From positions 4,896 to 32,298 of the IMG/VR virus record IMGVR_UViG_3300030451_000922: a stretch of DNA of 27,403 nt; one strand, 5' to 3'. Numbering within the stretch: position 1 is the stretch's first letter; every line of letters starts with the position of its first letter. The position numbers and the translations under genes were made by a program. Of the stretch, positions 13,501 to 25,278 are shown piece after piece. The notes below the pieces were generated by a model that was not told where the DNA came from, did not search any database, and saw nothing but the letters and a program-made list of their open reading frames with translations. This stretch comes from a virus.

Positions 13501-14042
13501 CTAATATTAACGCAGCTGTTTCTAACGCATCAAATATTAATAGTGCCGTATCTAACGCAACCAATATTAATACTGTTGCCACGAATATTGCTGACGTAAA
13601 TAATTTTGCAGATCAATACCAAATTGCAAGCTCTAATCCATCAACAGATGGAAGTGGTAACGCATTAGCTGCTGGAGATTTATACTTTAACACTACTGCT
13701 GACGAACTAAGAGTATATAATGGTTCAGCTTGGCAAGGGGGTGTAACCGCAACTGGTGCTTTAGCCCAGTTATCAGGTAATACTTTTTCTGGTAGTAATA
13801 TCCATAATGATAACGTAAAGTCTATTTATGGTACAAGCTCTGACGGTATGGAGATATTCCATAACGCTAGTGACTCAATTATTAATGACACAGGCACTGG
13901 TAGTCTAAAACTACAGACTGGTGGAAATACTAAATTAGAAGTCGTATCCACAGGTGTTACTGTAACTGGACTCGTTTCAGCAACTACTCTAGATGGAGCT
14001 GCTGGTAATAATTTACAACTTGACTTCGGAACACTCTCATAA
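10533..14042 (+). CDS. Tail fibre protein, T7 gp17-like N-terminus
   Basis: This 1169 aa protein has an N-terminal ~150 residues matching the T7 tail-fibre attachment domain in style: an N-terminal beta-rich part with Thr/Ser-rich strands, a YYPAVSVGTT loop, then IRASDLNNSARESNF and a helix with QEARNKAF. The middle is a patchwork of tandem modules: 47 aa repeats (from 11076), 37 aa repeats with ATADQT (from 11544), a 'DLWFN..DDLRVWDGSTW' module repeated later as 'DLYFN..DELRVYNGSAW', and thirteen 10-residue repeats (13200-13589). Such fibres recognise the host surface; the N-terminus docks on the tail and the distal part binds the receptor. The end is Thr/Gly-rich with no recognisable receptor domain. 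Its stop overlaps the next gene's start (TAATG at 14040-14044), so the two fibre proteins are probably made together and may form one appendage. Confidence 0.85.
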   Translation: MAVTTKKTFSATSNATTTAFTPVGIQLNNQDDLDVYVTLSGGSRVLQLRQTTGSTATSSHPQVNNTDGLYYPAVSVGTTLYNYQLSTDNNTITFNSALPQGAVVFCERRTRDADGTYTSFAAGSTIRASDLNNSARESNFTAQEARNKAFDLEGKIYNTLGQQDLVVKTTDTGTVDSTMIANGTIVNADINSSADIAGTKLADDSVTLAKLGSGALPTDITVASANIVNGTIVDADINATANIDGDKLANDSVSLAKLEGGALPTDITVASANLVDGTIVNADVNAGAAIAGTKVAPAFGTQNISTTGTLASGAHTVTGNIAVSGTVDGRDVATDGTKLDGIESGATADQTAAEIRTLTEAATDSNVFTDADHTKLNGIETAATADQTDAEIKTAYENNANTNEFSDAEQSKLAGIETAATADQTASEIKTLLQSDKLTLSEMNTTSLDTRYFTETELTNGALDGRYYTETEAEAKFLRQDSSETIASGVSWSNSDAYVATTAAINARIIDLIDEVGGFTAIANQTSFPTVNPQAATGQKAILSVSATTATLTPSGSTITIANGAGSGNTVTITGAPTIPNGFGFLVESTSTLHTYAFHRLVPIATQVNTVATNITNIVNAGANVADINNFADIYQIQGSAPTTRADGSSLQDGDLWFNNSNDDLRVWDGSTWAIITPSQAVLDDVAIVSGVITYSEDLGLITTAATTGSSNGSLDIVADILEDEVAFTVTVAGSKFVVDGVSAPALTLYKGWTYTFDVSDNSNASNPLRFKSGGSAYNTGVTVIGTQGQAGAKVTLKVPESQPTSFQYYSTANSNYGNTITVKDDPIKTVADINTEIVAVAGDSTDIGAVAAKATEIGRLGTAAAVADLAILGTNAIVADMDTLADISSNITTVANNDSNVTAVAGNASNINAAVSNATNINSAVSNATNINTVAGISANVTTVAGISANVTTVATNNSNVTAVAGNNSNITAVANNSSNINAAVSNASNINAAVSNASNINSAVSNATNINTVATNIADVNNFADQYQIASSNPSTDGSGNALAAGDLYFNTTADELRVYNGSAWQGGVTATGALAQLSGNTFSGSNIHNDNVKSIYGTSSDGMEIFHNASDSIINDTGTGSLKLQTGGNTKLEVVSTGVTVTGLVSATTLDGAAGNNLQLDFGTLS
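11076..11418 (+). repeat. 141-bp coding tandem repeats in the fibre gene
   Basis: Two full units (11076-11216 and 11217-11357) and a partial third (from 11358) each encode a 47-residue module of the type NGTIVNADIN...AGTKLADDSV...GALPTDITVASANIV. The period is exactly 141 bases, with synonymous drift between copies. A related copy lies in the next gene around 14209-14370. Such modules are common in phage fibre shafts and can expand or contract by recombination. Confidence 0.8.
11544..11834 (+). repeat. 111-bp coding tandem repeats (ATADQT modules)
   Basis: Units start at 11544, 11655 and 11766, exactly 111 bases apart. Each encodes a 37-residue module beginning KL.GIE..ATADQT..EI; the third is partial. 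ADQT repeats are familiar from many phage tail fibres. They presumably form part of the elongated shaft. Confidence 0.8.
13200..13589 (+). repeat. Thirteen 30-bp coding repeats (10-residue periodicity)
   Basis: Thirteen in-frame units of ten residues follow the pattern (S/T/A)N(I/V)(N/T).(A/V)(V/A)(A/S)N(A/N/S), for example SNINAAVSNA and TNINTVAGIS. The regular spacing of Asn and of the small hydrophobic residues suggests a trimeric shaft, either beta-structured or coiled. Third codon positions vary between units, so the array is not very recent. Confidence 0.85.
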
Positions 14043-15994
14043 TGGCAAAACAATTAAAATTAAGACGAGGCACAACCTCGCAACATGGTAGCTTTACTGG
14101 AGCCGAAGGTGAAGTTACTGTAGATACCGACAAGGAAACGCTTGTCGTACATGACGGCTCAACAGCTGGAGGACACCCAGTAGCTGCTGAAGATATGGCA
14201 AACGTATCTTCTGCTAACATTGCTGGAAGATTAAGTAACGACTCTATAGCAACATCTAAGATTGCAGCTGGAGCTTTACCTTCAGACGTAACAGTTGCTA
14301 GTGCAAACCTAGTTGACGGGACAATCGTTAATGCTGATATAGCATCAAACGCAGCGATAGCTGGTACAAAGCTAGAAACCTCTGGCGTAACTGCTGGTTC
14401 TTATGGTTCTAGTTCTGCTATTCCTATTGTCACAGTTGATGCTCAAGGTCTAGTTACCTCAGCTTCAACAACTTCGATTGACAGCACAAGAATAGATAAC
14501 GGTACCTCAAACGTCAGAGTTAATAATAACAACTCAATTCAAATGGCTTTTGCTGGTACTGATAGATTTACAGTATCAAACGCTGGGGTTGATGTAACAG
14601 GAACCTTAGATGCAACAGGTAATGTAAGTGTTGGCGGTAATTTAACAGTACAAAATGCTGACCCTTATATAGATATTGTAGACTCAGACCATAACTCAGA
14701 TTTTAGACTTTCTGCAAGTGGCGGAAACTTTGTAGTTAGAGATACCACTAATGGTTCAAATAGAATCACTTTAGCTTCAGACGGTACAGTTGATATAGCT
14801 GGTAACTTAGATGCTAACGGTGGTCTTGATGTAACAGGAAACATAGGAGCAACAGGAAATATCTCAGCTGTAGATATTACAGGTACAGGTGATTTATCCG
14901 CTAAAGATATTACTATTAGTGATACAACACCTACTTTATTATTTACAGATACTGACGCTAACCCTGATTATTCAATCCGTGTAAACGGTGGTCTGTTTCA
15001 GATCTCTGATGCTACCAACGGCAATGCTAATAGAATAGTAGTTAACACTGATGGTCATGTTGATATTCCTGGAAATCTAGATGCTGAAGGCGGTGTTGAC
15101 GTAACAGGGAATATTACAGTAACAGGAACAGTTGACGGTGTAGACATAGCAGCTAGAGATACATTATTTGGTAATCTAACAACTAGCAATGGAGTTCTAA
15201 GTAATGGCGTAACAGCTACTACTCAAGCTCAGTCTGATAACTCAACTAAAGTTTCTACAACTGCATATGTAAGAACAGCTATATCAAACTTAGTAGACTC
15301 GTCCCCCGCTGCCCTTGATACTCTTAACGAGTTAGCAGCAGCTATTGGAGATGATGCAAACTTCTCAACAACTATTACTAACAGCATAGGTACTAAGATG
15401 CCTTTAGCTGGTGGTGAGTTTACAGGTGATGTGACTTGTGAAAACATTACACCTGATGGAGATAGTTCTAGAAACTTAGGTACAAACTCTGTAAGATTTG
15501 CAAACGTATATGCTGACAACTTTGTTGGTGGCGGTGGTAACTTAACAGGTGTATCATCATTTGTATCTGGAATGATCTTGTTATGGTCTGGTGCAATAAA
15601 CAACATACCATCTGGATGGGTACTATGTAATGGATCAAACGCAGCTCCTAACTTACAAGATAGATTCGTAGTTGGTGCAGGTAGTGGATACTCTGTAGGA
15701 GATACAGGTGGTGCACAGTCTGTAACGCTTACTTCAAGCCAGATGCCATCTCACAGTCACTCGATGTCTGTTACTGACCCTGGACACTACCACACCACTA
15801 ACGACTACGTTGCTCGTGCATACTACCAAGAACCAAGAAACATTGGTAGTGCTACTGACGGTAACTGTAACTACACTGGTGATACTAACTCTAAAACAAC
15901 TGGAATTTCAGTTAGTGCTGGAAATACTGGTGGCGGTGGTTCTCACGAGAACAGACCTCCATACTATGCACTAGCTTATATTATGAAGACTTAA
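14042..15994 (+). CDS. Second tail fibre protein with C-terminal tail-collar domain
   Basis: This 650 aa protein starts MAKQLKLRRGTTSQHGSFTG and continues with 'EGEVTVDTDKETLVVHDGST', the N-terminal module seen in many phage fibre and tropism-determinant proteins. The middle carries one copy of the 47 aa module shared with the upstream fibre and two copies of a ~75 aa module ('PYIDIVDSD..FRLSASGG' and 'PTLLFTDTD..YSIRVNGG'). A 'STTAYVRTAI' segment precedes the distal part. The last ~135 residues are a phage tail collar domain: GMILLWSG, PSGWVLCNG, NLQDRFVVGAG, MPSHSHS, ENRPPYYALAYIMK. In many phages this domain forms the receptor-binding or chaperoned tip. It probably works with the upstream fibre, to which it is coupled by a TAATG overlap. 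Confidence 0.85.
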   Translation: MAKQLKLRRGTTSQHGSFTGAEGEVTVDTDKETLVVHDGSTAGGHPVAAEDMANVSSANIAGRLSNDSIATSKIAAGALPSDVTVASANLVDGTIVNADIASNAAIAGTKLETSGVTAGSYGSSSAIPIVTVDAQGLVTSASTTSIDSTRIDNGTSNVRVNNNNSIQMAFAGTDRFTVSNAGVDVTGTLDATGNVSVGGNLTVQNADPYIDIVDSDHNSDFRLSASGGNFVVRDTTNGSNRITLASDGTVDIAGNLDANGGLDVTGNIGATGNISAVDITGTGDLSAKDITISDTTPTLLFTDTDANPDYSIRVNGGLFQISDATNGNANRIVVNTDGHVDIPGNLDAEGGVDVTGNITVTGTVDGVDIAARDTLFGNLTTSNGVLSNGVTATTQAQSDNSTKVSTTAYVRTAISNLVDSSPAALDTLNELAAAIGDDANFSTTITNSIGTKMPLAGGEFTGDVTCENITPDGDSSRNLGTNSVRFANVYADNFVGGGGNLTGVSSFVSGMILLWSGAINNIPSGWVLCNGSNAAPNLQDRFVVGAGSGYSVGDTGGAQSVTLTSSQMPSHSHSMSVTDPGHYHTTNDYVARAYYQEPRNIGSATDGNCNYTGDTNSKTTGISVSAGNTGGGGSHENRPPYYALAYIMKT

Positions 15995-21951: not shown

Positions 21952-22001
21952 GCGGTGACTGGCTACCATTAACGGGTGTGGTTCGATTCCACTACACTGC
22001 T
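21952..22001 (+). ncRNA. tRNA-like acceptor plus T-arm fold without an anticodon arm
   Basis: The sequence GGTTCGATTCC (21980-21990) is a textbook tRNA T-loop with its closing pairs. The T stem is TGTGG/CCACt with four good pairs. GCGGTG (21952-21957) pairs with CACTGC (21995-22000) as a six-pair acceptor-like stem enclosing it, one base outside the T arm on the 3' side. Only 19 bases join the 5' acceptor strand to the T stem, so there is no room for D and anticodon arms. A reduced tRNA-like element, a degraded tRNA, or an attP-like tRNA 3' fragment are possible. No CCA is encoded. Confidence 0.35.
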
Positions 22002-22086
22002 TTGGTGTGGGTCTAAAGATGCTTGGACTGCTCATAATTCGGTTGAGAGAAAGCTCGCAATTACCACACCATTACACCACAGCACC

Positions 22087-22710
22087 ATGACTTATTCACA
22101 ACTATCACACAATGCACGTGAGATTGTTGCCAAGTTCACGCTTGCGACTTCTCAAGAAGTGCAACTAGGGTGTGACTGGTATCCGTCAGCTCTCTCGATA
22201 GCAGCTCGTATATCTGAGAAATACGAATTGAAGACCGAGGTTGTTGCGGGTGTCATCGCTGCCCTATCACCTAACAATCGCTGGGAGCGTAACATAGTAG
22301 ACGCTGAAGCCATCATTAAATGTTGGCGGTCTGGCGGTACTAGAACTGACATGCTCAACGTCAAGGTATGCACCTACGGGAAGATGAAAGCTAAGGCTAT
22401 TGATATCCTTACACGTGACATACCAATTATTGAGATACTCAACGGCAAGAAGCTGATTGAGTTCTACAACTGCATCACAAATCCTACACTCAACGATGTG
22501 TGTATTGATGGACATGCCTACAGCGTATGGTTTGGCGAACGCCTAACTATGAAAGAGGTTCCACCAATAGGTAAGAAGCTCCGAGCTACCATCAAGCAAG
22601 ATTATCGAGACGCTTGCCAGTTTATTAACGAGGAGCTATCATGCTTCTATTCACCCGCTGATATTCAAGCTATTACATGGGTGACACATAAACGAATATA
22701 CAATGTATAG
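22087..22710 (+). CDS. Conserved phage protein (DUF7178-like), unknown function
   Basis: I start at ATG 22087 (207 aa). The frame is open back to GTG 21976, but that part lies in the leader RNA and its translation looks unnatural. Blocks I recognise from cyanophage proteins: WYPSALSIAARIS (31-43), GVIAALSPNNRWERNIVDAE (55-74), YGKMKAKAIDIL (97-108), FYNCI (126-130) and VCIDGHAYSVWFGE (138-151). The SPNNRWE and DGHA blocks recall HhH-GPD DNA-glycosylase-like proteins, where a VDxH motif occupies a similar place, but the catalytic Lys or Asp pattern is not evident. It is the first early gene after the promoter, so a role in the first minutes of infection is likely. No Shine-Dalgarno sequence is visible. 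Confidence 0.65.
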   Translation: MTYSQLSHNAREIVAKFTLATSQEVQLGCDWYPSALSIAARISEKYELKTEVVAGVIAALSPNNRWERNIVDAEAIIKCWRSGGTRTDMLNVKVCTYGKMKAKAIDILTRDIPIIEILNGKKLIEFYNCITNPTLNDVCIDGHAYSVWFGERLTMKEVPPIGKKLRATIKQDYRDACQFINEELSCFYSPADIQAITWVTHKRIYNV

Positions 22711-23359: not shown

Positions 23360-23495
23360 CTACTTCACAGTTGAAGCTGACTCACCTGAAAAAGCTCGTG
23401 AGATCTTCAACAAAGAGGGTGGCAACTGGTTGTGTAACCAAGACAGCGGTGACTGTAACCATCAAATCGAGGAGGTTACTTTATGCGAGTCTTAG
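23319..23495 (+). CDS. 58 aa small protein upstream of dcm
   Basis: ATG 23319 to TAG 23493-23495. The product MNTYQIKQSYITADYFTVEA then DSPEKAREIF resembles the small phage proteins with a beta-strand and helix fold in which 'V.A.s.eeA.e.f' is typical. NKEGGNWLCN and four Cys residues follow. It overlaps the previous gene by 41 bases and the methyltransferase by 13. The competing frame at 23371-23571 is Arg/Ser/Val-rich and looks like a shadow. Confidence 0.55.
   Translation: MNTYQIKQSYITADYFTVEADSPEKAREIFNKEGGNWLCNQDSGDCNHQIEEVTLCES
23469..23476 (+). promoter_or_regulatory. Strong Shine-Dalgarno sequence for the methyltransferase
   Basis: GAGGAGGT ends 6 bases before ATG 23483. It fixes the start of the methyltransferase and is one of the few strong ribosome sites in the window. 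It lies inside the end of the 58 aa gene. Confidence 0.8.
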
Positions 23496-24373
23496 ACCTA
23501 TTTTCAGGGATAGGTGGGTTTGCATATGCAGGTCACTTACTAGGGGGCTTCACTACAACACAGTTCGTTGAGAACAACGCATACTGTCAGCAAGTACTCC
23601 GCAAGAACTTTCCACTTGTACCAATTCACGATGACATCACGACATTTGACACATCTTACAAATTCGGTGAGTACGATCTCATCACAGCAGGGTTCCCATG
23701 CCAAGACCTCAGTTCAGCGGGCAAACAGGCGGGACTTCGAGAAGGCACACGCAGCAGCCTGTTCTACAGGGTTATGCAGATTGCTAGGCGTGTTCGACCT
23801 AAGTTTATCCTCCTTGAAAACGTTGCAAATACAATCAGTCACGCCAAAGGGGAGACTTTCCAACACATACTCTATGAAATTGCCAAAAGCGGGTACAATG
23901 CTGAGTGGAGCATTATATCAGCTGCAGACGTGGGAGCATCGCACCTCCGTAAACGCATCTGGATTATTGCCTACGCCAACGACCCAAGATACTATCGCAC
24001 ACCCAAACGCCACAATCACAGCTTCGGGGAGGAGACTATCGTCCAATGGTACGAGTCACAGCCTCAACATACAAGACAAGTTGACGCTATTACCGACACC
24101 CAGAGCGAGCGAGTGGAAAGGCATAGGAGTCAAGGGGAGCAAAAGCAGCTTACGATGGGCGAAACAGGGCTACTTAACTGGAGTGATACAAGAATCCGAC
24201 TCAGTCCCGAATGGCGTACCTACACATCTCAACCCATGCTTCGTAGAGGAGATGATGGGCTATCCCGTAGGGTGGACAGACTTAAATGCCTAGGCAATAC
24301 AATATGTCCGCAAACCGCAACAATTCCCCTGAACAGAGTGAAACAGCTTGACTCTCTCTTCCAGTATAGCTAA
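23483..24373 (+). CDS. C5 cytosine DNA methyltransferase
   Basis: This 296 aa protein has the motif order of m5C methyltransferases: motif I DLFSGIGG (5-12, AdoMet binding), motif IV FPCQDLS (71-77) with the catalytic Cys73, motif VI LENV (111-114), motif VIII LRKRIWI (155-161), and motif X GLSRRVDRLKCLGNTICPQ (259-277). Length is at the short end for the family. The target-recognition segment between VIII and X (about 165-250) is short and polar and differs from what I expect of a standard domain. It probably methylates phage DNA against host restriction or alters early regulation. The 3' half overlaps another protein-like frame (23874-24293), which is unusual. A strong Shine-Dalgarno sequence sets the start. 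Confidence 0.88.
   Translation: MRVLDLFSGIGGFAYAGHLLGGFTTTQFVENNAYCQQVLRKNFPLVPIHDDITTFDTSYKFGEYDLITAGFPCQDLSSAGKQAGLREGTRSSLFYRVMQIARRVRPKFILLENVANTISHAKGETFQHILYEIAKSGYNAEWSIISAADVGASHLRKRIWIIAYANDPRYYRTPKRHNHSFGEETIVQWYESQPQHTRQVDAITDTQSERVERHRSQGEQKQLTMGETGLLNWSDTRIRLSPEWRTYTSQPMLRRGDDGLSRRVDRLKCLGNTICPQTATIPLNRVKQLDSLFQYS
23874..24293 (+). CDS. Overlapping +1-frame ORF resembling the alternative C-terminus of phage cytosine methyltransferases
   Basis: Within the methyltransferase gene, the frame ≡0 (mod 3) is open from 23568 to TAG 24291-24293; from ATG 23874 it gives 139 aa. It reads LPKAGTMLSGALYQLQTWEH, ASGLLPTPTTQD, LLPTPRASEWKGIGVKGSKS, YLTGVIQE, and LNPCFVEEMMGYPVGWTDL. These blocks match, as I remember them, a segment found in many phage and bacterial methyltransferase-related proteins ('LPTPTASEWKG' ... 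'LNP.FVE.MMGFP.GWTDL'). The same DNA also codes for motif VIII to X of the full-length enzyme in the other frame. It could be an overprinted gene, the product of a frameshift, or a trace of an old frame change. No Shine-Dalgarno sequence precedes ATG 23874. Confidence 0.4.
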   Translation: MKLPKAGTMLSGALYQLQTWEHRTSVNASGLLPTPTTQDTIAHPNATITASGRRLSSNGTSHSLNIQDKLTLLPTPRASEWKGIGVKGSKSSLRWAKQGYLTGVIQESDSVPNGVPTHLNPCFVEEMMGYPVGWTDLNA

Positions 24374-24427: not shown

Positions 24428-24700
24428 ATGAAACCACAAGAACGCACCTCCACTGTAGTTCACAACATAGATGTCAACCCATTGACAGGCTATGCCAAGG
24501 TAGAGCTACTATCTGGGGCAGTCTATGAGTACCACAATGTATCTCGTAAGGCATGTGCCAACTTACTTGCACAACCTAACATGTCATTAGGCTTCTGGTT
24601 CAACAAGAACTGTAAAGCTAATGGTGTTAAGTGTAAGCAGCTTAAAGATGTAAACCTCTCTACCAAATGGATAGAGTTTAAGAAAACCTATGCCAACTAG
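24428..24700 (+). CDS. KTSC-domain-like protein
   Basis: This 90 aa protein fits the KTSC pattern: a conserved Ser near the start, a first strand (VVHNIDVNPLTGYAKVEL, about 10-27), then SGAVYEYHNVSRKACANLL (29-47) and a final 'NMSLGFWFNKNCK' (51-63), which corresponds to the 'S.G.yfn..I' end of the family. KTSC domains are small beta-rich domains found in phage and bacterial proteins, sometimes fused to lysyl-tRNA synthetase; their function is not well known. The gene starts a new block after a short gap and overlaps the next gene by 11 bases. Confidence 0.6.
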   Translation: MKPQERTSTVVHNIDVNPLTGYAKVELLSGAVYEYHNVSRKACANLLAQPNMSLGFWFNKNCKANGVKCKQLKDVNLSTKWIEFKKTYAN

Positions 24701-24908
24701 AATGTCAATGACTGTTACTTTCGATAAGTCTGTAGCCCCCTCTCTTTTAGAGGGTGGTTACAACTACACACCATCTGGAAACAACACTGTTCAAGTGTAC
24801 TTCGGATATGACCAAGACAGGGATATCTATGATATCTTAGAAGAATCTGGGCTTGGACATCTAACTGACTCTGTAATCTACACCGACTACTTCAATGAAG
24901 ATTATTGA
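24690..24908 (+). CDS. 72 aa acidic protein, unknown function
   Basis: ATG 24690 gives 72 aa; inner ATG codons at 24702 and 24708 are possible starts. The product has TVTFDKSVAPSLLEGGYNYT, then a QVYFGYDQDRDIYDILEESG stretch, and ends TDYFNEDY. It is acidic and Tyr-rich with alternating strand-like residues. The DNA at 24737-24755 forms a strong hairpin (CCCTCT/AGAGGG), which may be just coding. It overlaps the endonuclease gene by 14 bases. No family is recognised. Confidence 0.5.
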   Translation: MPTRMSMTVTFDKSVAPSLLEGGYNYTPSGNNTVQVYFGYDQDRDIYDILEESGLGHLTDSVIYTDYFNEDY

Positions 24909-25278
24909 GAATGAAATCTATCAAGCCTACAAATCAGGGCAAGCCAAGCAATGTAAAGAATGTGGAGAAATCAAGCTCCTCAAAGACTTCCCACTATTTA
25001 GTACTGTGGGAGCAGGTCGTAAAAATACTTGCAAACATTGCTCCAATGCGTTAGCTACGATCAGACGTAGGCTACGTAGACAGAACCCGCCACCATCATC
25101 AGCGGGAGACTGCCCTGCATGTGGTAGACATACTACAAAATGGGTACTAGATCATGACCACGAAACCAACAGGTTCAGGGGTTACATATGCGATTCATGT
25201 AATGTAGCCTTTGGCAAGTTTGGGGACGACCCTTACACAATGCAACGTTCACTTCACTGGCTTCAATCTCATGGGTGA
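24895..25278 (+). CDS. Recombination endonuclease VII-like protein
   Basis: This 127 aa protein carries the endonuclease VII signature: C73-x2-C76, DHDHETNRFRGYICDSCN (86-103) with Asp86, His87, Asp88, His89 and the second Cys pair C99/C102. The DHDH-RG-CxxCN core is the His-Me finger of T4 gp49 relatives. In addition, the N-terminal half has its own C20-x2-C23 and C46-x2-C49 pairs, so a second zinc site is likely. Such enzymes cut branched DNA and resolve junctions; in T7 gp3 plays this part. It could also nick host DNA for nucleotides. Overlaps: 14 bases before, 8 bases after. Confidence 0.85.
   Translation: MKIIENEIYQAYKSGQAKQCKECGEIKLLKDFPLFSTVGAGRKNTCKHCSNALATIRRRLRRQNPPPSSAGDCPACGRHTTKWVLDHDHETNRFRGYICDSCNVAFGKFGDDPYTMQRSLHWLQSHG

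Follow-up and report, generated by a model that had tools for sequence, protein, structure and literature searches.

The two reading frames

The window, by which we mean the whole stretch of 27,403 nucleotides analysed from IMG/VR virus record IMGVR_UViG_3300030451_000922, carries on its plus strand two long reading frames, one nested in the other (table 1). The outer one, here called alpha, lies in frame 0, is preceded by a GAGGAGG ribosome-binding site at about 23469-23475, as read from the sequence, and was described in the initial annotation as a C5 cytosine methyltransferase with a frame running from 23483. That identification stands: PF00145 matches alpha at 3e-50 within an open reading frame that extends to 24373, phrog_363 matches it at 1e-66, and the core motifs I, IV (PCQ), VI (ENV) and VIII are present and kept in alignment A2. 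The PF00145 match covers just profile positions 1-227 of 324, and neither motif IX nor a recognition domain is found in frame, which is not the composition of a single-polypeptide enzyme. The AlphaFold model of alpha is ordered and confident at residues 1-170 and 270-296, and its fold matches that of M.HhaI (E 2e-17), to which alpha is also related by sequence (5e-25).

Table 1. Features of the nested pair in the window
Feature	Position	Strand	Remarks
Alpha, putative subunit with the C5 methyltransferase catalytic core	23483..24373	+	296 aa, motifs I-VIII and X
Beta, putative subunit nested in alpha, +1 frame	23631..24293	+	220 aa; ATG 23631 the most likely start; stop TAG 24291-24293
Nine alpha codons, IWIIAYAND	23957..23983	+	Alpha codons 159-167; no base varies among 18 phages; +1 reading SGLLPTPTT
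Beta LPTP module 1 (LLPTPTTQD)	23964..23990	+	z up to 46 against alpha-synonymous shuffles
Alpha linker, the overlap as read in frame 0	24002..24268	+	Predicted disordered, pLDDT about 38-57
Beta LPTP module 2 (LLPTPRASEWKG)	24087..24122	+	z up to 43 against alpha-synonymous shuffles
Beta motif IX-like block (LNPCFVEEMMGYPVGWTDL)	24228..24284	+	Strongest +1 conservation of any block in 149 genes, z up to 117
Alpha motif X (RLKCLGNTICPQ)	24278..24313	+	Overlaps the end of beta; conserved in A2; tail profile matched in the alpha frame in 216 of 236 loci

The inner frame, beta, is read one base later (+1). It had been given as open from 23568 to 24293 and as reading SGLLPTPT, LLPTPRASEWKG and LNPCFVEEMMGYPVGWTDL, with the bases around 24228-24290 yielding LNP..GWTDL and also GDDGLSRRVDRLKCLGN; these coordinates and readings are right, the open stretch reaching from about 23544-23568 up to 24293. 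Beta is covered by PHROG 1008 (phrog_1008, 1e-17) and by no Pfam or NCBIfam model, and sequence searches of Pfam, NCBIfam and PDB returned no useful match to it. Modelled alone with 97 relatives it reached low confidence (pTM 0.43), and the model had no fold match in the PDB. Three PHROGs of unknown function, 26627, 27243 and 35493, match beta proteins (82, 70 and 26 of 103 members, respectively) and appear to be fragments of beta.

The LPTP modules vary in number, with one to six per beta in 11, 61, 43, 21, 7 and 2 loci, respectively, of the 145 compared, and this variation suggests a modular target recognition. The last block of beta, with the consensus LNPxFVExxMGxPxGWT, resembles LTPRECARLMGFPDTFT of in-frame monomers; the hhalign match between them is weak (9 columns, E 0.043) and in register.

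Extent of beta and selection on both frames

In a set of 149 diverse alpha genes, the +1 frame has stops at the chance rate up to codon 60, is nearly free of them in codons 63-266 (almost nil against several hundred expected) and has them again past the end of beta, and over about the same codons, 63-266, the per-column conservation of the +1 reading exceeds that of shuffled sequences. In window coordinates this stop avoidance begins near 23670. The conserved +1 interval proposed in the initial annotation, 23874-24293, is conserved indeed, but it is too short at its 5' side, where the likely start is at 23631. The 18 close sequences listed each have an ATG at alpha codon 49 or 50, other relatives, L081, L108 and L127 among them, have start codons with a strong Shine-Dalgarno sequence near alpha codons 53-60, and in L213 the open +1 frame itself starts with an ATG (MEQLTLF). 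A Shine-Dalgarno sequence followed by ATG lies within alpha codons 45-66 in 36 of 146 genes, against 17 expected from shuffles; the enrichment of ATG starts at codons 20-41 is smaller (9 against 4), and there is none for ATG in the control codons 67-88 or 100-121. ATG 23631 has no clear Shine-Dalgarno sequence upstream of it in the window, and its position, at the place where the relatives start, makes it the most likely start of beta. Two other candidates were considered. ATG 23874 was rejected because it is not conserved, relatives having T or W there; ATG 23898 is conserved and partly supported by Shine-Dalgarno sequences in the family, but the +1 selection reaches further upstream, and it could only serve as a second, shorter start.

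How much of this openness could arise by chance was estimated with synonymous shuffles that keep the alpha protein and its codon usage. The +1 frame remained open over 23874-24293 in just two of 1000 shuffles, and the window's +1 peptide scored 177.9 bits against 75.2 for the best shuffle, in a profile that includes the window among its 15 sequences. Across 145 non-redundant loci, most of them outside the profile, the real +1 peptide scored above all 40 shuffles in every case. Conversely, given the beta protein, alpha would be open by chance in about five of the 145 loci, and it is actually open in all.

Substitutions among 18 close phage genes point in the same direction. Parsimony changes at frame-0 codon positions 1, 2 and 3 number 70, 47 and 273 in codons 1-130 and 146, 34 and 34 in codons 158-268, and this flip is the pattern of a gene that is read one base later. 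Alpha-silent change in codons 1-60 was taken as the neutral yardstick, and nine independent pairs were compared. In codons 159-240, changes that are silent in alpha and alter beta number 8 against 110 expected (0.07 of neutral, P 9e-37), changes that alter alpha and are silent in beta number 81 against 116 expected (0.70 of neutral), and changes that would place a stop in alpha while silent in beta are absent against 13 expected (P 2e-6), a result that is independent of the transition weight. From this pattern it follows that beta behaves as a strongly selected protein. Its constraint extends further upstream, at 0.19 of neutral in codons 131-146, 0.41 in codons 101-130 and 0.71 in codons 61-100. 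As for alpha, the missing stops and the weak constraint on its residues imply that it must be translated through the overlap, where its sequence matters little; the linker thus appears nearly unconstrained, save that stops are forbidden. Judged by these substitutions, both frames are selected as protein, and in codons 159-240 the stronger constraint is on the +1 frame. The close relatives carry no +1 stops and their frame-0 synonymous sites do not drift freely, which is the opposite of what had been named beforehand as speaking against two coding frames.

Distribution of the nested pair

A beta in the +1 frame inside a spanning alpha reading frame is present in 221 of 236 loci, which were found mostly through beta. 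Among loci found by alpha motifs alone, a set that still includes the closest relatives of the alpha profile, 71 of the 72 usable ones have the same layout, the sole exception (L253) having a frame break. The association was also seen in 20 bacterial genomes chosen for containing beta: all 17 methyltransferases that are truncated near motif VIII in PF00145 have beta, against none of the 13 with a full-length PF00145 match, whose +1 frame has 5-22 stops. The members come from phages of Synechococcus, Paenibacillus, Mycobacterium, Stenotrophomonas, Bacteroides and Porphyromonas, and also from many bacterial phyla. Mycobacteriophage Llama differs from SG4 by a frame change that breaks the alpha frame, and its gene is annotated as two methyltransferase genes (L319 801-1560 against L320 801-1559).

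Most of the exceptions among the 236 loci are cut contigs; L114, L144, L188, L084 and L091 either depart from the layout genuinely or are unclear. Wherever the sequence is complete enough to judge, no beta occurs without alpha, save for the two unclear loci L084 and L091. In L114 (1914-3214) and L188 (1321-2881) the alpha reading frame stops just after motif VIII, and the recognition region, motif IX and motif X all lie on the +1 reading frame, a layout by which the recognition region belongs to the beta frame. The path from a one-piece to a split enzyme would lead through two frame changes, and L114 and L188 are possible intermediates between the one-piece and the fully nested form. L144 (Paenibacillus macquariensis), where the motif IX block ends the core reading frame and motif X is in a different frame, is perhaps a broken or rearranged gene.

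A probable split methyltransferase and its alternatives

With a probability of about 0.88, we consider the locus to encode one split C5 cytosine methyltransferase, made from two overlapping and separately initiated genes in the manner of M.EcoHK31I, an assignment that draws on sequence comparison. Alpha, the frame-0 product, would consist of the core that binds AdoMet and performs catalysis (motifs I-VIII), followed by an unstructured bridge and then motif X; ribosomes starting a second time within alpha, most likely at ATG 23631, would make beta in the +1 frame, which would bring the target-recognition region with its LPTP modules and motif IX. Separately initiated on one mRNA, the two would assemble to form a single active methyltransferase acting on a short DNA target, probably shielding phage DNA from host restriction; we infer the protective role, as well as the expression of alpha and beta and their assembly. 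The placing of recognition in beta we infer from the constraint on beta, from the predicted disorder of the alpha linker and from the layout of L114 and L188. The initial annotation had listed a dual-coding gene that makes two proteins among its options, and sequence evolution in both frames strongly supports it; the two proteins were seen correctly, but it was missed that the +1 protein would carry both motif IX and the recognition part of this enzyme, and that M.EcoHK31I is a precedent.

Long same-strand nested genes are rare in prokaryotes and their proof is difficult, and to our knowledge one example of a nested C5 methyltransferase pair has been described. The smaller polypeptide of M.EcoHK31I (YGGCCR), of 176 amino acids, is reported to be encoded within the larger one in a different frame (Lee, Kam and Shaw 1995); the putative second polypeptide of the window is likewise encoded inside the first in another frame, and appears longer, at about 220 amino acids. 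The window pair also differs in being borne by a phage. By published description, the larger subunit of M.EcoHK31I holds motifs I-VIII and X, with the recognition domain predicted there as well, and the smaller polypeptide holds motif IX (PMC3404938). Compared by this described layout, alpha of the window agrees in having motifs I-VIII and X without IX, and a motif IX-like block, linked to motif IX of monomers by a weak profile match, is on the putative second, +1-frame polypeptide; unlike in M.EcoHK31I, it is beta that appears to hold the recognition region. Searches of plasmids for an enterobacterial relative of M.EcoHK31I returned distant members only, such as Enterobacter L238. M.AquI (CYCGRG), a C5 methyltransferase split between motifs VIII and IX, has motif X together with motif IX on its smaller subunit (PMC3404938). 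L114 and L188 have essentially this layout, whereas in the window alpha continues through motif X and beta is fully nested. The alpha core is homologous to the monomeric M.HhaI and M.HaeIII, which, in contrast to the window, keep motifs IX and X in one frame together with the recognition domain. The same nested methyltransferase pair is found in Fernvirus phages of Paenibacillus larvae (Shelly gp55/gp56 and Leyra gp61/gp62), although it is distant in sequence, with about 36% in beta. There the inner reading frame bears the label 'g55 internal gene' or counts as a second 'DNA methyltransferase', and the annotations give no explanation of the nesting.

An unlikely alternative, also put forward in the initial annotation, is a frameshift switch, in which the ribosome slips by +1 near motif VIII (about 23940-23990) and produces one protein with the +1 recognition region beside the frame-0 version. 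The domain order of core, recognition region and motif IX would be natural over a shift of this kind, the DNA of codons 159-167 does not vary and the core reading frame of L144 ends with the motif IX block; dual coding, however, accounts for the invariant codons, and a product of the shift would stop at 24290 and lack motif X. Conservation and the lack of stops in the +1 frame begin at about codon 63, far 5' of the junction, L114 and L188 retain a long +1 reading frame far upstream though their alpha ends past motif VIII, and the excess of Shine-Dalgarno sequences with ATG at codons 45-66 gives beta a start region of its own. Less probable still is that beta is a real protein yet no methyltransferase subunit, for example an overprinted anti-restriction or regulatory protein. 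Such a protein would fit the absence of Pfam or PDB relatives and the poor fold of beta alone, but wherever beta is present alpha is without motif IX and an ordered recognition domain, beta is tied to alpha in the loci that can be judged save L084 and L091, its last block resembles motif IX, and in L114 and L188 its frame holds motif X too. That the +1 frame is an untranslated echo of conserved frame 0, or the fossil of a past frame change that the initial annotation had allowed for, is hardly credible: conserved alpha residues do create some upstream +1 similarity (shuffles average 35.8 bits), but all 145 loci exceed their shuffles, +1 stops are excluded, the 13 monomeric controls have stops and no beta, and the +1 frame is the more constrained one.

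For the split enzyme made from two nested genes, the breadth of the pair, the recognition domain apparently in beta and the absence of a Pfam model for beta look new; no description of a widespread family of nested C5 methyltransferases emerged from the literature searches. We see an even chance that the nested two-frame form is one of the major types of C5 methyltransferase in phages and prophages, overlooked for want of a Pfam model of beta, and that in this form the recognition domain is wholly in beta, the frame-0 segment of alpha is just a stop-free bridge and specificity evolves by gain and loss of LPTP modules. The pair spans many bacterial phyla and phage groups, with selection on each frame cleanly measurable, which suggests that many annotated C5 methyltransferases are half-enzymes. 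Recoded cloning of such half-enzymes would destroy beta and give apparent inactivity, and a specificity predicted from the frame-0 segment would be meaningless.

Among the window neighbours scanned no restriction enzyme was recognised, a further difference from M.EcoHK31I, and the methyltransferase therefore looks like an orphan. Around it lie a DUF7178 protein (21976-22710), a weak KTSC-like protein (24428-24700) that is below the Pfam cut-off and a recombination endonuclease VII (24895-25278). Elsewhere in the window, positions 14042-15994 hold a tail fibre reading frame with an Mtd_N domain (PF18454).
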